From positions 1-22,181 of the IMG/VR virus record IMGVR_UViG_3300035670_005291: a stretch of DNA of 22,181 bases; one strand, 5' to 3'. The DNA is from a virus. Within the stretch, counting starts at the first letter, position 1. Each line of letters begins with the position of its first letter. The translations under genes were made by a program, and so were the position numbers. Below, one piece after another: positions 304 through 8,142 of this stretch. The notes beneath the pieces are model-generated. The model saw only the letters and a list, made by a program, of their open reading frames with translations. It was not told the origin of the DNA and searched no databases.

Positions 304-1572
304 TTAGTTATATTCTTCCCATGTCAATGACGCCACGGCATCATCGTTGTTTGTTGTTGCAATAGCTGATACAACAAAAGTTTCCATAGTTCCATCTATT
401 GTTGTTCTTAACTGATAACTTGAATTGTATTTTTTGAAGTCTACATTGGTTTGATTGACACCTGCACCACCCATAAACATACCTTGTAACAAATTATCCC
501 CACCAGACAAAGCAGTTCCAGTGATATTATATTCTACATGACTTTCTGGACCAGCACTTACCCATGTGCCGCCAGTAACAGTTGCATTTTGCAACATTCT
601 GTAATTGAATGGTGTTGATTGTAACCCATATAAGTCTGCTGCGACTGGAACAACAACGCCGCCTGGTCTGTCTACTTTCAAACGAATTGCAATCATTGGT
701 CTTGAAGTTACATTTGATAACTCAATACCTGTAAGTGGTGTTGATACTGCATGTGTAACTACTCTTGGACTATGACCACCTTCTGATATGACCGTATTAC
801 AAATGTGTTCTAATGTGGTATTACTTGCAGTTGTTCCTGTATTTGTAATTTCATATCGTAAAGGTAAAGTTGCAGTTGTCATGTAAACAGAAGTAATCTT
901 GTTTGCATGATGAAATTTGTGTGCAGTTAAAATGCGACCATCAACAACAAAACCAATGCGAATTGTACCAGCACCTAACCATTCAAAATCAGACCAAAAG
1001 ATTTGTGTCTTTGAAAAATCAAGAGTTACTTTACTGTAACCTGTTCCATCAAATTTATCTTCAGACCATTGCGATTGTGGAATTCTTTCTTCTTCAACAG
1101 AACCAGTTCTGAAACTTCTTTTTACAATGTATGCAGTTGTGCCATCATGTTCCAAATAAACACCATTTCTTGTATCAAAATAACCAATTCTTTGACGAAC
1201 ATTGGCCTTTGGTTGCATTGTACCAGTACTGAGTGTAAGTAAACTTTTTCCTGGTTGATAATGAAAGTATCTTTTTGTTTGACGAATAACTGAATCATTG
1301 TTCGCAGTACCAACTGTCATCAATACAGATGAAGTATTTGGTGAATGAACAACTGTTGTGTTTGCAGTATTTGATATAGACCAATTTCTTGTATCATCAG
1401 TATATCTCAATGTACTATCAAAAATTGTATGTGGTTCGGAAACACGAATACGACCAAAAGCATCACGAATTGTACCACCAGGTGATAGCTGATCGTCAAG
1501 CATGAACACCTCAAAACGAGTTGTTACTTGACCTGAATCAATAATCTTAAGATCGTTACGATATTGTGCCAC
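304..1572 (-). CDS. Putative virion structural protein (422 aa)
   Basis: This 422-residue protein is rich in beta-prone, Thr/Ser/Asn/Gly segments and has no signal peptide or membrane helix. It contains phrases I recognise from a widespread marine-phage structural family: DAFGRIRVSEPHTIFDS near residue 38, YQPGKSLLTLSTG and NVRQRIGYFDTRNGVYLEHDGTT in the first third, then IFWSDFEWLGAGTIRIGFVVDG and NTVISEGG near the middle. The family is usually annotated as a hypothetical or tail-associated structural protein, and I know no enzymatic role. The start is GTG at 1572, directly after the TAA of the DUF6321-type gene, with only a weak ribosome site, so translational coupling is likely. Its place in the late module supports a virion role. 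Baseplate, fibre or head decoration cannot be told apart from sequence alone. Confidence 0.75.
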   Translation of the reverse strand: MAQYRNDLKIIDSGQVTTRFEVFMLDDQLSPGGTIRDAFGRIRVSEPHTIFDSTLRYTDDTRNWSISNTANTTVVHSPNTSSVLMTVGTANNDSVIRQTKRYFHYQPGKSLLTLSTGTMQPKANVRQRIGYFDTRNGVYLEHDGTTAYIVKRSFRTGSVEEERIPQSQWSEDKFDGTGYSKVTLDFSKTQIFWSDFEWLGAGTIRIGFVVDGRILTAHKFHHANKITSVYMTTATLPLRYEITNTGTTASNTTLEHICNTVISEGGHSPRVVTHAVSTPLTGIELSNVTSRPMIAIRLKVDRPGGVVVPVAADLYGLQSTPFNYRMLQNATVTGGTWVSAGPESHVEYNITGTALSGGDNLLQGMFMGGAGVNQTNVDFKKYNSSYQLRTTIDGTMETFVVSAIATTNNDDAVASLTWEEYN

Positions 1573-2490
1573 TTAGCAATTCCACTTTCTTAATGCTTTG
1601 TTAATACGAGAATCTGGATCATTTGCTGTCTTAGCAGATGTCAATCGTTTTTTCATGCCACCCATTCTGGCACAAAATGATTTGCGTCTCTTTGCAGACT
1701 TAGAATCTGGGTCTAGTTTAGATGGTTTTGTAGTCACAGCAGTCTGTAACTTTGAACCTGGATTCTCACGGCGATATGATTCAACACCTTTTTGATTCAG
1801 ACCACCTTCAGGATTTTTACCTTCTTTTCTCTGCCATGCTGCAACCTCATCAAGTTCAACTTCTTCTTTTACTTTTTTATATTGTTTCTGCAATACTTTT
1901 AATGCATCTTTTGTTACTTTATCAGTTTTTTCTGGTTTTGCTTTTTTACCTACTGGCAATCCTTCTGCACCACGACTGGAAGATGGTTGAGATTTATCCA
2001 TTTCATCAAGTTCAACTTCTTCACTATATGAACGATTACTTTTTGGATCATAACCACCTAAAGGATATGCTGAAGGTGATGGGGGACGAGGAGCAATTGG
2101 TTTCTTTGCAGCTGCTTCATGTCTCTTTTTTACTTCTTCTGCATCTTTTGCTCTTGACTCTGGTGTTGAAACTTTTGCATTAGGAAATCTCTCTTTTGCA
2201 AATTTAGCAACATAAGAATCTTCTTCTTTGATATGGCCATATTTTTTCTTATACCAATTAGGCATACCATTTTTTTGTCTGAAATATCTAACTGTTGCAG
2301 AATCATTTGCTTGATCACGATACTTGTTTTCTGCTTGAGTATTGTGTCCTTTCATTGCTTCTGCTGCTTTATGAGCATCTTTAGCAATATAAACAAGTTC
2401 TGCATCTGTTTTGCGATGGTATTCGTGTCCTTCAAGTGGGTGTCTTTGAGAAGGGCGACCTTCTGTTATGTAAGATTTAAATGACTTCAT
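1573..2490 (-). CDS. DUF6321-type putative internal head protein
   Basis: The protein has 305 residues and is strongly basic and low in hydrophobics. The N-terminus MKSFKSYITE-G resembles the T4 capsid-targeting peptide (MKTYQEFIAE in T4 internal proteins), which the gp21 prohead protease cuts after the Glu. Residues about 18-80 form a conserved helical module (HPLEGHEYHRKTDAELVYIAKD). A disordered middle follows, with PPSPS and two copies of EEVELDE at 157-163 and 209-215. The C-terminal 90 residues carry KNPEGGLNQKGVESYRREN, RRKSFCARMGGM and a final INKALRKWNC, which match my memory of the DUF6321 family of T4-like marine phages. The start overlaps the preceding stop as ATGA. A packaged basic protein bound to DNA is the likeliest role, inferred from the N-terminus and charge. 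No catalytic motif is visible. Confidence 0.8.
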   Translation of the reverse strand: MKSFKSYITEGRPSQRHPLEGHEYHRKTDAELVYIAKDAHKAAEAMKGHNTQAENKYRDQANDSATVRYFRQKNGMPNWYKKKYGHIKEEDSYVAKFAKERFPNAKVSTPESRAKDAEEVKKRHEAAAKKPIAPRPPSPSAYPLGGYDPKSNRSYSEEVELDEMDKSQPSSSRGAEGLPVGKKAKPEKTDKVTKDALKVLQKQYKKVKEEVELDEVAAWQRKEGKNPEGGLNQKGVESYRRENPGSKLQTAVTTKPSKLDPDSKSAKRRKSFCARMGGMKKRLTSAKTANDPDSRINKALRKWNC

Positions 2491-4820
2491 CCTATTGGCC
2501 TCTTTGATCTAAATGTTTTTAGGTTCATACCTTTTTTCTTTAAACCATCTTCAACTTGTGCAGATATAGATGCAGTTGTTTCATCACCAGTAAGTTCTTC
2601 TAATGGTTTTTTAATTTGTTTTACTTTTAATGTACCACGACTCATGTTCTCACCTGATGCAGCCATTGAAAGACCAGGTTCTATCCCCTTGTCGATCTCG
2701 CTGAGGGTTTCTTCTTGAAGTTTCTCTTTTTTTGCCCTGATTTCTGCGAGGGTAATTTTTGTGGTTCTGGTTTCTTGGCTGGTTTCTTTTGTGTTACTGA
2801 GTCTGTAATCTGATCGTTCACTGAGGAGGGCAGAGACTTCTTGTTGATCTTTGGTTCTACCCGAATATTCGGTGGAATCTCTGAGTACTTGTTGACTTTC
2901 TCTGTTGCTGCCCTCACTGGACCATCCAATGGATGACTCTGTGGTTTCTCTTCCGTCATTCCAAAAAATTTCTGTAATAGTTTCATTAACATCGTTATTC
3001 TCCTTTAATTGCACGACATAACCGTTTTTGTATCTCAAGACCAATCCATTGTGTGTATGTGCTTCTTTTGCTGCAGCAGCTCTTAACATAAACACACGAA
3101 CACGACCAGTCTTATCTTTCATTAACTTAGGTTCTTTTTCTTCACCTATCTTAAAATCATGTTCATCAATTGCATTACCAAGCAATAATAGATTCAATGC
3201 AGATGAGTCTGATAGTTCATATGATTCTTTGAACATCTTATCAAAAGCACTAAGTCTTGGTTTTGATTTTTTATTCTCAACCTTTGGTTTAGGTTTAGAT
3301 TTTGGTGTACCAGATGAACTAGAAATAGGTATCTTTTGTTGTTTTTGTTCTTGTGGTTTTACTTCGACAAGTTTATCATGTACAGAACGATGTGTCACTC
3401 TTCCATTTTTGCCGTATCTACCAAACCCGTAATACTTAAGTCCCAATTCTTTTGCCTGTTCTGCTGCTCTAGAACCTTCATGTGGAACAATCTCTTTACT
3501 TGTGTCTACTTTATATGTGTCTTTTTTATCTAGTTCTGCTGCAACCCATTCTTTTGCAGCTTTATTCTTAGGTGGTGCCGTAACAAATTTTTGTACAGTT
3601 TTAAATAACTCTGTAATTTCTTTTTCTTTTTGTTGCACTACTTCTGGTGGTGCATTTCTTAAATCTTCTGAGTTATCAAACTCTGTATAGTTTTGTCCAA
3701 ACAATTTTGCATATTCAGGTCTTGCAGCCTGTACAGCATCCCATTTCTGTTTACGAATGTCTTCTGGTACTGTGCGACCACCTCTTTGTCCTCTTTCTAC
3801 ATTCCTTGCAGCAGAGACTTCATCATCAGTATTGACCATGATTCCACTTGTTTCATAACCATGTTTCTCAAGACTACTTTTAATTCTTTTAATCTTTTCT
3901 ACATCATCACCTGTACCATTAATAATGAGTCCATTCTTTCCAACAAGTGCCAAGTATTGTTTTAATTCAGTAACATTTTTTGCACGACTACGAACAGCAT
4001 TTCTAACTTCTGTTTCGGATTTAGGCATTGTCTTATCAAGACCTTCTTTGTCCATAAGAAACTCAAATGCTTTATCAGAATTAATTTCAATCAGACCTTG
4101 ATTATCGAGTGTTCTAGATAACACATAATCTTTTCCAGAACCTGGGCCACCAAAAAGAAATACTGCTTTGAATATAGATTTATCGTGAACACCTTCTACC
4201 AAGAATTCTTCAAACTCTTCGTTAATGTCTTCTCTAATCATCATTCCTTTGCGAACATCATTGTACATTGCCTTGACTGTATCAAGTGGCATCGTAGATG
4301 GAGCACCTTTTTTAAATTTTGCAAATTTTCCTTGTGCAGCAAACTCACGCATTTTAGATGCAGAAATACCAGCAACTCCATCTGCATCAGGGTCTCTTTC
4401 TCCAGCAGAATGAACTTCTATCTTTTTGAATTTGAAAAGATCACCATTGTAAGTATTAAGTAATCTTTTGAATTCTGGCACACGATCAGAACCACCTACC
4501 ATGTGTAGATGTGTATAACCTGCCTTATACAGGTCTGCGGCTTGTGATAGGAAATTAGGGGAAGTTGCGTTTGAAGATTTGAATGTGACGCCAGGAAAAG
4601 ACATCTTGGCGTATTTGACTTTTTGTGCTGCGGAGAGTGGATTTTTCTTTTTATCTTGTGTGTGGGAAAGAATTATGATTGCTTTTCCACCAACTTCTTG
4701 TGCTACAGCCTTGACTTTTTTAACCAATTCTTGGTGGCCGTTGGTAATAGGATTCATGCGGCCAAATGCCATAACCACATGTTTTTCTTCTTTTTCAGTA
4801 AGGTATTCTTTAAATCTCAT
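2487..4820 (-). CDS. Nucleotidyltransferase/P-loop kinase fusion, capsid-targeted
   Basis: This 777-residue multidomain protein is related to the cyanophage proteins labelled cytidylyltransferase. Residues 1-9 (MRFKEYLTE) look like a capsid-targeting peptide. Residues 15-165 are a nucleotidyltransferase of the NMNAT/cytidylyltransferase fold, with GRMNPITNGH (TxGH motif) at 20-29 and ISASKMR at 152-158 in place of ISxTxxR. Residues 215-390 are a P-loop kinase-like domain with Walker A GGPGSGKD at 224-231. The linker FEEFLVE-G at 203-210 fits a second L-x-E/G prohead protease site. Residues about 445-490, 520-606 and 690-777 are further conserved segments, with a disordered stretch at about 610-690 that overlaps the 103-aa frame. 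GAGG lies 8 nt before ATG 4820 and a TATAAATA box is 31 nt upstream. The substrate is unknown; NMN or CTP type chemistry are both possible. Confidence 0.85.
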   Translation of the reverse strand: MRFKEYLTEKEEKHVVMAFGRMNPITNGHQELVKKVKAVAQEVGGKAIIILSHTQDKKKNPLSAAQKVKYAKMSFPGVTFKSSNATSPNFLSQAADLYKAGYTHLHMVGGSDRVPEFKRLLNTYNGDLFKFKKIEVHSAGERDPDADGVAGISASKMREFAAQGKFAKFKKGAPSTMPLDTVKAMYNDVRKGMMIREDINEEFEEFLVEGVHDKSIFKAVFLFGGPGSGKDYVLSRTLDNQGLIEINSDKAFEFLMDKEGLDKTMPKSETEVRNAVRSRAKNVTELKQYLALVGKNGLIINGTGDDVEKIKRIKSSLEKHGYETSGIMVNTDDEVSAARNVERGQRGGRTVPEDIRKQKWDAVQAARPEYAKLFGQNYTEFDNSEDLRNAPPEVVQQKEKEITELFKTVQKFVTAPPKNKAAKEWVAAELDKKDTYKVDTSKEIVPHEGSRAAEQAKELGLKYYGFGRYGKNGRVTHRSVHDKLVEVKPQEQKQQKIPISSSSGTPKSKPKPKVENKKSKPRLSAFDKMFKESYELSDSSALNLLLLGNAIDEHDFKIGEEKEPKLMKDKTGRVRVFMLRAAAAKEAHTHNGLVLRYKNGYVVQLKENNDVNETITEIFWNDGRETTESSIGWSSEGSNRESQQVLRDSTEYSGRTKDQQEVSALLSERSDYRLSNTKETSQETRTTKITLAEIRAKKEKLQEETLSEIDKGIEPGLSMAASGENMSRGTLKVKQIKKPLEELTGDETTASISAQVEDGLKKKGMNLKTFRSKRPIG
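2681..2992 (-). CDS. Overprinted basic 103-aa protein inside fusion gene
   Basis: A 103-codon frame lies wholly within the large nucleotidyltransferase-kinase gene, shifted by one base. AAAGGAG ends 7 nt before its ATG at 2992, a stronger ribosome site than that of most genes here. The product begins MLMKLLQKFFGMTEE, a short amphipathic helix, then becomes a Pro/Lys-rich disordered tail with 19 lysines (QKKPAKKPEPQKLPSQK). Small proteins with a hydrophobic MLxKLxxFxFG start and a basic tail are common in T4-like marine phages (recalled, not searched). Base composition rises here: 28 of 60 bases at 2821-2880 are G or C, well above the surroundings, as expected if two frames are constrained. 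The host frame in this stretch is Ser/Glu/Arg/Thr-rich and looks like a flexible linker. The function is unknown. It could still be chance. Confidence 0.6.
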   Translation of the reverse strand: MLMKLLQKFFGMTEEKPQSHPLDGPVRAATEKVNKYSEIPPNIRVEPKINKKSLPSSVNDQITDSVTQKKPAKKPEPQKLPSQKSGQKKRNFKKKPSARSTRG

Positions 4821-4850
4821 CTCCGCCTCTACAGCAGTTGTTTAATGTAC

Positions 4851-4858
4851 TATTTATA
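4851..4858 (-). promoter_or_regulatory. Candidate T4-type late promoter TATAAATA
   Basis: An exact TATAAATA on the minus strand sits in the 59-nt gap between the epimerase stop and the fusion gene start, 31 nt before that ATG. T4 late promoters use this octamer at about -10 with the gp55 sigma factor. The 8-mer is expected a few times per strand by chance, but the intergenic position ahead of virion-type genes favours a real site. Confidence 0.6.
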
Positions 4859-4879
4859 TAATTTACTCTTTACGAACTT

Positions 4880-5782
4880 TCAAATTGTATTTCCATGCAG
4901 TTTCAAATATTGTTTGATATCTTTAACAGGATTCCATCCTAACATGTTCTTAGCTTTATCATTATTTGCAAGTGTTTCTCTTGATTCAGCAGGCCTTGGT
5001 GGAATAAATTTTATTAGTGAAGAAATCATTTTTGCTAATTCTAAAATAGAATAATTTTTACCAGTTCCAATGTTAAAAGTTTCACCAGAAATATTTTTAT
5101 ATTCACCCATAGCTAAAATATTTGCATCAACAACATCACTCACATGAGTAAAATCACGGCGTTGTAATCCATCACCAACAATCGTAAGTGGTTCTCCTGC
5201 TTTAGCCTGTCGTATAAAGAGACCAACTACTGGTGCATAAGGACCCTTTAATGGTTCTCTTGGACCATAGACATTGAAGTAACGAAAAATAACAGTCTCA
5301 AGACCAAACAGTTTTGAATACATTTTACACATTTCTTCACCAGCAGTTTTAGCAACAGAATACGGATTTAGACAATCGTTAGGCATTGTTTCTGTTAAAG
5401 GTAGAGTATTTTTAAGACCATATGCTGAAGATGTGGAAGAATAAATTACTCTTTTTACTTTTGCTTCTCTCGCACATTGAAGAACTACGCCAGTTCCATA
5501 TGCGTTTGTATTAAAACAAAGTAAAGGATTTTGAATTGCAGGCTGAATTCGTGATTCTGCTGCTAGATGAAAAACATAATCTACACCTTCAAATAAATGT
5601 CGTATTCCACAATAATCTGATATATCATTCTTGTAGTATTTGGCACTTGAGTTATACCAAAAATTTTCATGTGAAGTTGCAGATTCATTATCAATCACAA
5701 TTACTTCATGGCCAAGTTCACACAATTTATCTACAATGTGACTTCCAATAAATCCTGCTCCACCAGTTACTATACTTTTCAT
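4880..5782 (-). CDS. NAD-dependent sugar-nucleotide epimerase (SDR family)
   Basis: A 300-residue extended short-chain dehydrogenase that most likely epimerises or dehydrates a UDP- or similar sugar nucleotide in the host cytoplasm. TGGAGFIG at 6-13 is the NAD-binding glycine motif, DN at 31-32 follows beta-2, SSTSSAYG at 115-122 supplies the catalytic Ser/Thr, and Y141-xxx-K145 (YSVAK) is the catalytic pair. ESRIQPAIQNP and RYFNVYGPRE are typical of the GalE/WbpP-like group. It is slightly short (usual length 310-340). The ATG at 5782 follows the glycosyltransferase stop with no gap, so the two are co-translated and probably act in one glycan pathway. The exact sugar cannot be read from the sequence. 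The gene looks host-derived. Confidence 0.88.
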   Translation of the reverse strand: MKSIVTGGAGFIGSHIVDKLCELGHEVIVIDNESATSHENFWYNSSAKYYKNDISDYCGIRHLFEGVDYVFHLAAESRIQPAIQNPLLCFNTNAYGTGVVLQCAREAKVKRVIYSSTSSAYGLKNTLPLTETMPNDCLNPYSVAKTAGEEMCKMYSKLFGLETVIFRYFNVYGPREPLKGPYAPVVGLFIRQAKAGEPLTIVGDGLQRRDFTHVSDVVDANILAMGEYKNISGETFNIGTGKNYSILELAKMISSLIKFIPPRPAESRETLANNDKAKNMLGWNPVKDIKQYLKLHGNTI

Positions 5783-6622
5783 TTAACCACCATATTTAAC
5801 ATTAATTATATTTTCCCAATCCAATATTCTATCATACTGATGAACAATAGGATAAGGCACACCTTTGCTCGTACAAACTAAACCATCAATCATTTTGGGT
5901 GAAGGTTCAGTCAAATATGTTTTATCATATTTTGGAGCATGAATGTGTAATTGACATGCAAACCCATCTTCACTTTTATTAAAGTTTGTAATATTTTTAT
6001 ATGGATTCATCGACATTAAAATATTCAAACTACTTTGATCTTGTATGTACTTTATTCTCTTATCATACATTAAAGATAAAGTAGTGAATAGATCAAGAAC
6101 ATAATCAAATTCTCCAGATACAATACCAACATTCATCACCAAATCATTTGCAGTTTTATCAAGGAATCTTTGACCAAAAACACCTAACATCGTTTCTCTA
6201 TTCCAAGGCTCATCTTTAACTAATATTGATTCACAACAGATATTTAATTTTTTGTCTCCAATATTATTTTCTAACCAAACAGAAGGATTTGATTGGAAAA
6301 TCACATCTCTCACATCAGTAGAAATGATATATCTAAATTTTTCTTCTTTTGCTAAACTTTTCAGAAAGAATGGTATGTGTTCAAATCGATCATTATTAAT
6401 ATTTAATGGATTTTTATAAACTAGTTTTCTGTTTTCATCATCTCTATCAAATGCAAGAACAATATAATTTCTTTCATTTAATTTCTCAACAACATCATAA
6501 TCAATGTTATAGCATACCATTATTTTTTTACCAGTAAACCCACAATTGTCTAGTGAATTTACCCAATTTTTTATTTTGTCCCAACCATAATTAGTTATAG
6601 CACCAATCACAATATCATTCAT
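5783..6622 (-). CDS. Putative GT-A type glycosyltransferase
   Basis: I place the start at ATG 6622 (MNDIVIGAITNYGWDKI), which has TTGGAG 6-7 nt upstream. An in-frame TTG at 6634 would begin inside this ribosome site. The product is then 279 residues. The motif YIISTDVRDVIFQSNP at about 98-113 has the D-x-x-D pattern of metal-binding GT-A glycosyltransferases of the kind annotated as putative hydroxyproline or hypothetical glycosyltransferases. A second conserved-looking block, MNVGIVSGEFDYVLDLF, and QDQSSLNIL further on resemble the acceptor-side GxxxG and D-Q regions of such enzymes. There is no membrane segment. It lies directly before the sugar epimerase, so it may use that enzyme's product to decorate virion proteins, DNA or host envelope glycan. 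The substrate is unknown. Confidence 0.7.
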   Translation of the reverse strand: MNDIVIGAITNYGWDKIKNWVNSLDNCGFTGKKIMVCYNIDYDVVEKLNERNYIVLAFDRDDENRKLVYKNPLNINNDRFEHIPFFLKSLAKEEKFRYIISTDVRDVIFQSNPSVWLENNIGDKKLNICCESILVKDEPWNRETMLGVFGQRFLDKTANDLVMNVGIVSGEFDYVLDLFTTLSLMYDKRIKYIQDQSSLNILMSMNPYKNITNFNKSEDGFACQLHIHAPKYDKTYLTEPSPKMIDGLVCTSKGVPYPIVHQYDRILDWENIINVKYGG

Positions 6623-6637
6623 ACTATTCTCCAATAA

Positions 6638-6910
6638 TTAACCTCTTGTCAATTTCAAAATCTTTTGCATTTGTTGTTCTAATACAGGACCACGATTGGG
6701 CCAATGTATATATGGTTGAGATGCAGACTTGTAAAGATTAGTTAGGAATGGCATGACAATCTTTTCAACTTGTGCTAATCTTTGTTTATATTCTTCCACA
6801 GTTTCATCTTTTTGAGCAATTACAGCTTCATACTCTGCCTCATCTACAGCTGTAAAACCAAAATCTTGATCACCATATTCAGACAGTATTTTATTTAGAT
6901 CATATGCCAT
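6638..6910 (-). CDS. Conserved T4-like phage protein, 90 aa
   Basis: A 90-residue acidic-to-neutral protein: an N-terminal segment (MAYDLNKILSEYGDQDFGF), a long helix from about 22 to 62, and a conserved tail QPYIHWPNRGPVLEQQMQKILKLTRG. The YIxWPNR motif recurs in small proteins of T4-like marine phages as I remember them; their function is not established. The start codon overlaps the stop of the ligase-like gene by one base (TAATG), so it is translationally coupled to it. The following glycosyltransferase is 15 nt away. The helical region may mediate oligomerisation, which is inference only. Confidence 0.78.
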   Translation of the reverse strand: MAYDLNKILSEYGDQDFGFTAVDEAEYEAVIAQKDETVEEYKQRLAQVEKIVMPFLTNLYKSASQPYIHWPNRGPVLEQQMQKILKLTRG

Positions 6911-8142
6911 TACTTACTCCAATTCTTTGCAGCATTAAAATTATTTTTACTGAATTCTAATCTATCTATAAGTTTTAAAGCACCACCACTCAATCTATCA
7001 ACAGCAACAAATCCTTCTGGGCCTGTAACTTTGAAACCATCATCAGTTTTCACAAATGTATCTACAGAAGATTTTATAGTTTCCAATTTCTTAACTATAA
7101 TATTTTTTGCTTCAACGATAGAGTTCATTAGATCAAATATAAGTTTTAGTTGTGCTGCATTTGTTCTATAGAACCTCATCAGATCATTTTTTTCTGTTAA
7201 TCGTTTTTGTTTCGTATCTTCTTTTTTAGATGCTAGAATTTCTTTGTTCAATCTTTCTTCAACCCATTTTTGCAATTCAGTCACATGTCTGGCTGTATTT
7301 GTGATTGCTTTACCTTCACGAACTTTAGTATTATTGAAAGTTTTAATTTGCATAAGAATTGTTGGAGATGCAGCGATACGATTTAGAACTAATGGTGTTA
7401 TTGATCTAAATGTTCTACCTGCATCAGAAAGAATAGAAGTTATTTCTTTAGTTTCATCTTTAGTAAAAGTTGCTGTACCAGAAGCATCAACAAAAGACGC
7501 ATCACGAAACCAAACATCTTTTGTTGTTTTAAAATGACCAATATCTATGTTAAAAGTTGCCTTCAAAGTATCCATAGATTTACCAAAGTATGCCGTATGA
7601 AACACAATACCAATTTGTGCATCCAACATTTTACGAGCCATTATCGTATCAGAAGGAATAGCATATACGATAGTGTTTGGTTGAAATGTTATATATGAAG
7701 TTCCATCTATTTGTCTTCTATCTATATCACCTTTAGTGAACAATAGATCACCCTGATAGATTCCATTGAAACCAAGTTTAGGTAAAAATGCAAGTGCAGT
7801 TTTAAGTTTAGAATTTAAACCTGGATTAGGATGATTGTTATCAATGTCTTCATCTGTATAGTTTAGTTTGCCTTCTTTATTGAATACTGATTTAGTACCA
7901 ACGAAGAACTTTCCGTTATCTGGATTAATACCACAGATAACAGCAGGTGCACCATCCCATTTTGTTGTGACATTTATTTTACTTTGAGAATGACCAGCCA
8001 ACATGTCACGAAGAGATTGAAGAAAGTTTATCGATTCTCTAGCACCCATGATGCCACGATTAAGAACATTATCTTCCAAATGTTCAAGATGAAGGTTGGC
8101 GCCTTCTTTAGAAGACTCTTTTAAATAATCTTTGAATTTCAT
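6910..8142 (-). CDS. DUF6267-like protein with ligase-type KxDG motif
   Basis: A 410-residue protein. Residues 1-9, MKFKDYLKE, match the capsid-targeting pattern. HLEHLEDNVLNRG at 18-30 is followed by VTTKWDGAPAVICG at 58-71, where K61-W-D-G64 has the form of the lysine motif I of the covalent nucleotidyltransferase superfamily (DNA/RNA ligases, capping enzymes). FVGTKSVF (80-87), GIYQGDLLF (127-135), ITFQPNTIVYAI (151-162) and IGIVFHTAYFG (177-187) sit where motifs Ia, III, IIIa and IV would be expected, but with weak matches. The C-terminal third is helical and Lys/Glu-rich. AAGGA lies 6 nt before ATG 8142. A packaged nucleic-acid ligase or adenylylating enzyme is possible; a degenerate, non-catalytic fold is the alternative. 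The DUF name is from memory. Confidence 0.72.
   Translation of the reverse strand: MKFKDYLKESSKEGANLHLEHLEDNVLNRGIMGARESINFLQSLRDMLAGHSQSKINVTTKWDGAPAVICGINPDNGKFFVGTKSVFNKEGKLNYTDEDIDNNHPNPGLNSKLKTALAFLPKLGFNGIYQGDLLFTKGDIDRRQIDGTSYITFQPNTIVYAIPSDTIMARKMLDAQIGIVFHTAYFGKSMDTLKATFNIDIGHFKTTKDVWFRDASFVDASGTATFTKDETKEITSILSDAGRTFRSITPLVLNRIAASPTILMQIKTFNNTKVREGKAITNTARHVTELQKWVEERLNKEILASKKEDTKQKRLTEKNDLMRFYRTNAAQLKLIFDLMNSIVEAKNIIVKKLETIKSSVDTFVKTDDGFKVTGPEGFVAVDRLSGGALKLIDRLEFSKNNFNAAKNWSK

Follow-up and report, generated by a model that had tools for sequence, protein, structure and literature searches.

Three proteins encoded in the window, a stretch of 22,181 nucleotides (a 22-kb fragment) from a T4 relative known solely from environmental DNA, probably start with sequences like those of the T4 internal proteins, which would target them to the capsid; from the sequence comparisons we put the probability of this reading at roughly 0.84. 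The three open reading frames singled out in an earlier note on this DNA, for a DUF6321 protein, a nucleotidyltransferase-kinase fusion and a DUF6267 protein, are all real and all lie on the minus strand, with the start of the DUF6321 gene overlapping the end of the fusion gene (Table 1). Other open reading frames of the window, which we named by eye as gp43, UvsX and gp41, plus MazG, Hsp20 and PstS, are those of a T4-like phage. The genes for gp21 (the S77 prohead protease) and the capsid are absent from this 22-kb fragment. A sibling contig, L081, is near-identical to the window (100% identity for DUF6267, 98% for the fusion). Beyond the point where the window ends, the same operon encodes further tagged proteins in L081, an acidic one of 143 aa (L081:15925-16356) and one of 518 aa (L081:16745-18301), for both of which a Pfam search gave no match.

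Table 1. Features of the window discussed in the text; a slash marks the presumed cut after Glu
Feature	Position	Strand	Details
Virion structural protein (head and packaging), adjoins downstream	304..1572	-	phrog_1645 E=8e-121
DUF6321 protein	1573..2490	-	305 aa; PF19846 E=2e-19
Basic DUF6321 domain	1576..1845	-	23 K/R and 8 D/E in 89 residues
Internal cleavage-like linker EEVELDE/V, residues 209-215, abuts DUF6321 domain	1846..1866	-	same domain behind N-terminal tag in L051, L090, L091
Internal cleavage-like linker EEVELDE/M, residues 157-163	2002..2022	-	L-x-E site
N-terminal capsid-targeting-like peptide MKSFKSYITE(/G), DUF6321 protein	2461..2490	-	register of T4 IPII/IPIII MKTYQEFIAE
Nucleotidyltransferase-kinase fusion	2487..4820	-	777 aa
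Second internal site-like motif FDKMFKE/S, residues 526-532	3225..3245	-	relaxed motif; strict at equivalent junction in 7 homologues
Module of ~35 residues, LGLKYYGFGRYGKNGRVTHRSVHDKLV	3351..3464	-	common to cyanophage virion-detected proteins
P-loop kinase domain, residues 216-426 (GGPGSGKDYV), zeta-toxin/AAA_33-like	3543..4175	-	PF06414 E=1.7e-9; PF13671 E=4.8e-9; P-loop kinase fold matches
Internal targeting/cleavage-like site FEEFLVE/G, residues 203-209, between enzyme domains	4194..4214	-	E209 and G210 invariant in 17
Nucleotidyltransferase domain, residues 11-192 (GRMNPITNGH, ISASKMR)	4245..4790	-	PF01467 E=9e-5; phrog_3041 E=9e-65; pLDDT mostly 82-90
N-terminal capsid-targeting-like peptide MRFKEYLTE(/K), fusion	4794..4820	-	15/16 homologues having this N-terminus
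T4-type late promoter box TATAAATA before fusion gene	4858-4851	-	38 nt upstream
DUF6267 protein, KWDG (K61-W62-D63-G64), ligase-like	6910..8142	-	410 aa; PF19782 E=1.4e-115
N-terminal capsid-targeting-like peptide MKFKDYLKE(/S), DUF6267 protein	8116..8142	-	F3 and E9 invariant in 22 homologues

The three proteins share the motif F/Y-x-x-F/Y-L/I-x-E, which in the window peptides takes the form F-x-x-Y-L/I-x-E. The spacing of its residues is that of the targeting and processing residues of T4 IPIII (MKTYQEFIAE): MKSFKSYITE stands in the same register, and MKFKDYLKE and MRFKEYLTE are one residue shorter with the spacing unchanged. In IPIII, residues 4 and 7 serve targeting and residues 8 and 10 processing, ten residues suffice to package a foreign protein, and T4 gp21 cuts after L/I-x-E (PMC9026906). 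When every start codon in the window's open frames (50 codons or longer) was scanned with a relaxed motif, the matches were the starts of these three genes and two TTG codons that lie in frame within other genes.

Among relatives, the motif frame is present in 56 of 59 DUF6267 proteins (the IMG/VR sample leans to tagged members, as the peptide MKFKDYLK was one search seed), in 28 of 33 fusion-related proteins, searched without the N-terminus of the fusion, and in 16 of 19 DUF6321 proteins, collected as neighbours. The key F, F/Y, L/I and E show little or no variation, unlike the x positions. The motif was counted in 109 of 138 proteins of the three families from IMG/VR and isolate relatives, with 0.22 expected after shuffling of the N-termini, and in 19 of 1830 other ORFs of the relatives, with 0.7 expected; both observed counts are upper estimates, somewhat inflated by a preference for tagged starts within 40 codons, and the expected counts are far below them despite this bias. 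These shuffles and the internal background in S-CREM2 led us to reject chance similarity. The starting peptide with an I/L-x-E at residues 7-10, noticed earlier in the window alone, is thereby confirmed by both the reading frames and the relatives. The 19 others include a SAM hydrolase and a kinase of S-CREM2, HAD phosphatase-like proteins, a very basic small protein and proteins of the same operon; besides the three families, the tag also precedes small acidic and other unrelated bodies. The HAD phosphatase-like proteins start with MKTFTEFLTE (L042:7324-8088), MKNYKKYITE (L056:11501-12394) and MLSFRQYLFE (L062:3019-3633); in their relatives in L005, L008 and L018 the N-terminus is a different and longer one.

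Virion mass spectrometry of S-CREM2 detected the 52 proteins given in Table 3 of PMC10665884. A strict motif derived from T4 occurs in 3 of 219 S-CREM2 proteins, a small number of matches (n = 3), and all three are virion-detected in that table (Fisher p = 0.013; 0.0027 structural proteins aside): a SAM hydrolase (MKDFDSFLEE), an APH-like kinase (MKRFDAFLTE) and a cytidylyltransferase (MKNFSSFLTE). With the relaxed motif there are six matches, five of them in the table (p = 0.003). The cytidylyltransferase T4-GC190 has also been reported in S-SM1 virions (PMC3037559) and a kinase in those of S-CRM01 (PMC10665884); their N-termini read MKKFSAFLNE/A and MISFDQFLSE/K. The S-CREM2 authors caution that virion-detected enzymes may be co-purified (PMC10665884), which is less likely for the tagged ones since they share a targeting peptide. 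The motif is thus tied to enzymes detected in the virions of other phages of the group. A search of the available literature found neither a published N-terminus cleaved after the tag Glu residues nor work that connects capsid targeting to cyanophages.

The Cas9-like virion protein of S-CREM2 (ORF12, L124:7704-10313) has an extended tag with the motif LRFASFMAE/A; no usual alternative start precedes RFASFMAE, where the codon is CTG, and the motif was therefore counted only as an extended form. Relatives with an extended tag are found in S-CRM01 (L139:8422-8973, LSLDSFIKE/A) and S-H34 (L140:6216-9149, GFSSFLKE/A); across this protein and its relatives the motif lies ~17-26 residues in. In the virion-detected ORF160 of S-CREM2 (L126:44342-45235), GFTGAAAPEGPVAGYDP closely resembles the stretch directly behind the putative cut in the major capsid protein of S-CREM2 itself.

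An S77 gp21 is encoded in four longer related contigs, and near its N-terminus it reads YLTE/K or YLTE/S, resembling the tags. The capsid proteins of these contigs have ILSE or MLQE at the position of T4 FLTE/A, their cleavage sites being inferred by position relative to T4; one of the four (G002) departs from this with IMEA. The capsid-targeting reading of the earlier note is therefore strengthened by the IPIII spacing, by the virion-detected enzymes of other phages and by these gp21- and capsid-like sites; for the phage of the window itself we infer packaging with cleavage, injection and enzyme use in a new host.

T4-type late promoter boxes had been reported before two of the three genes, and one of these stood. 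Exact TATAAATA is found only before the fusion among the three genes (its three copies in the window, with 2.0 expected, are not significant in number), and a box NATAAATA at -50..-20 precedes 15 of 33 fusion homologues vs 57 of 855 other ORFs (p = 3e-9). In front of the DUF6267 gene stands CATAAATA, which is kept in 1 of 58 relatives, and a late promoter at this position was rejected since the box is not conserved; upstream of the DUF6321 gene there is no box.

Late in infection, F/Y-x-x-F/Y-L/I-x-E would attach to the prohead core and in this way bring the protein into the prohead. There gp21 (S77) of the phage itself would cleave behind the Glu; the mature protein would stay in the head and could reach the next host together with the DNA. 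The same protease could also split the fusion into nucleotidyltransferase, kinase and C-terminal part.

Copies of the motif at the domain boundaries inside the fusion, and module exchange there, are new relative to the earlier note. When 17 fusion homologues are aligned, the motif is confined to three columns, one at the N-terminus (15; residues 3-9 in the window protein), one where nucleotidyltransferase and kinase meet (8) and one where the kinase meets the C-terminal part (7). Cleavage by gp21 between the two enzymes is plausible from this pattern, at odds just short of even. In HTVC008M the nucleotidyltransferase and the kinase are separate genes and the kinase starts MIPFILKE/G, so that the fusion appears to keep an old kinase propeptide as an internal site. 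This arrangement also suits the alternative that the N-terminal peptides target the head and the internal motifs, the first of which may be the old kinase N-terminus, are uncut linkers left from gene fusion; the fold match to NadR, which works as a fused two-domain enzyme, points the same way. We consider this somewhat doubtful, as 33 of 33 kinase junctions read [LIVMF]-x-E/G while the linker around this site varies, the internal sites lie in low-confidence linkers of the AlphaFold model (197-215 and 490-562, the latter disordered), and independent modules use the same boundary. The ~35-residue module of the fusion, with the pattern A..LGL.Y.GFGRY....THRS...KL, also occurs in the cytidylyltransferases of S-SM1 (L138:4857-6020) and Syn9 and in the kinase (ORF14) and Cas9-like protein (ORF12) of S-CREM2; several carriers are virion-detected.

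Exchange of modules involves the DUF6321 protein, whose minimal form consists of tag and domain (L051, L090, L091). Four small modules (DLRKWF.., GRPSQRH.., CWPGYK.. and the AWQRKEG DUF6321 domain) stand behind an N-terminal tag or an internal [LIVMF]-x-E, depending on the protein. A Glu at most three residues away, itself preceded two positions earlier by a hydrophobic residue, was found for 15 of 18 DLRKWF.., 7 of 7 GRPSQRH.., 12 of 13 CWPGYK.. and 14 of 16 AWQRKEG occurrences, counts for which E-rich linkers raise the Glu background. The DUF6321 protein of L081 (372 aa) has an extra CWPGYK-type insert right after a K-E position of the window protein. As far as sequences go, this fits an exchange of cargo at putative protease sites. 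Another protein (L107:12970-14589, related contig G001) has several EEVExL/IxE linkers and, after a HicA toxin domain (residues 71-122), a GRPSQRH module. A search of the available literature returned no paper naming DUF6267 or DUF6321.

Taken further, the internal sites would make such proteins head-internal polyproteins, in which enzymes and small basic modules, each with its own targeting/gp21 site, are packaged as one chain, cut in the prohead and injected separately, the sites serving as recombination boundaries for cargo swaps. We hold this view tentatively, as almost an even bet.

As for the enzymes themselves, among known enzymes the fold of the fusion best matches NadR (6gyf, E 9e-7), the NMN adenylyltransferase-ribosylnicotinamide kinase, and the domain order is shared with it, a nucleotidyltransferase (PF01467) followed by a P-loop kinase; of the purposes considered, NAD restoration and nucleic acid repair, the models thus make NAD salvage plausible. 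In contrast to NadR, the best Pfam matches of the kinase are zeta toxin/AAA_33, the linker holds a protease-like site, and HTVC008M has the two as separate genes; the kinase fold also matches polynucleotide kinases, among other P-loop kinases. Taken whole, the fusion aligns poorly with NadR (TM-scores 0.14-0.31), since how its domains are placed relative to each other is not predicted, and on account of these scores we do not claim a NadR function. Two structural ciliary/axonemal proteins also rank high, so the whole-chain fold hits are loose. In DUF6267 homologues K61-D63-G64 (within K61-W62-D63-G64), E376-G377 and K390 are invariant, and the top Foldseek matches include DNA ligases and a capping complex at poor E-values (~0.5-3). 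The predicted structure of DUF6267 thus weakly resembles ligases, and its role may be ligase-like repair or something else. Profiles of DUF6267 and of the fusion, run against PDB sequences, gave no useful match.

The tagged proteins might also be prohead core or DNA-condensing components that act in head assembly instead of delivered effectors, with enzyme folds that are relics or serve assembly. In T4, gp21 likewise cleaves the core proteins gp67, gp68 and gp22, which are lost for the most part (PMC9026906); the DUF6321 domain shares a basic character with the T4 internal proteins, and C48C1 has very basic tagged proteins. This is unlikely, given that the catalytic-type motifs (K61-W62-D63-G64 of DUF6267, the P-loop of the kinase) are conserved and that homologous tagged enzymes are present in mature virions of S-CREM2, S-SM1 and S-CRM01. 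That the shared N-terminus is a translation-start feature of late genes, or functionless homology spread by recombination as the clearly recombining DUF6321 modules might suggest for gene 5' ends, is very improbable, since conservation is concentrated on the residues with a role in T4 and spares the variable x positions, other ORFs mostly lack the motif, internal copies are distant from start codons, and the motif is associated with virion detection.

Capsid targeting by the N-terminal peptides, the reading we prefer, has its closest model in T4 IPI, IPII and IPIII, where in T4-like phages with an S77 gp21 the same ~10-residue N-terminal aromatic-x-x-aromatic-hydrophobic-x-Glu stands before unrelated bodies; here, in contrast, the bodies include enzyme-type proteins of up to 777 aa and copies of the motif also lie at internal junctions. 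T4 Alt has an N-terminal propeptide removed by gp21 and undergoes C-terminal processing too (PMC9026906). Like this ADP-ribosyltransferase, the proteins described here would be enzymes carried in the head and injected, although the enzymes are different ones. We are not aware of internal copies that recur between a pair of catalytic domains in Alt. The virion cytidylyltransferases and kinases of S-CREM2, S-SM1 and S-CRM01 have the same N-terminal peptide; the cytidylyltransferases belong to the same nucleotidyltransferase family and, in S-SM1 and S-CRM01, are encoded near DUF6267. These cyanophages differ in that DUF6267 is untagged, the virion kinases are protein-kinase-like instead of zeta/AAA_33, and separate genes encode the nucleotidyltransferase and the kinase. 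The accessible parts of the papers on these virions do not mention a targeting signal. In SPN3US, ejected head proteins have N-terminal propeptides that are cut after Glu by the prohead protease gp245 (PMC10052503), with the motif A-x-E and propeptides mostly of 111-254 residues; separation of catalytic domains is not mentioned in the accessible part of that paper.

If the peptides act as proposed, a short sequence rule would predict the head cargo of abundant aquatic T4-like phages, mostly unannotated proteins. It would also offer an explanation for the cytidylyltransferases, kinases and SAM hydrolase in cyanophage virions, which the authors could not distinguish from contamination, and the copies at internal junctions would extend T4 targeting from single internal proteins to polyproteins that are cut apart.

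The tag itself is detachable, because the DUF6267 proteins of S-CRM01, S-PM2 and S-SM1 keep the body and lack the tag, starting near the conserved HLEHLED block; those of DLP_6, C48C1, Melnitz and the relatives of the window are tagged. The nucleotidyltransferase of HTVC008M likewise starts without the full tag (MKTLKELLRKK). Because both proteins occur in some relatives without a complete tag, their packaging may be dispensable. In L015 and L094 the place between the same tag and the same kinase is taken by a different nucleotidyltransferase (GGGFQPFHAGH).
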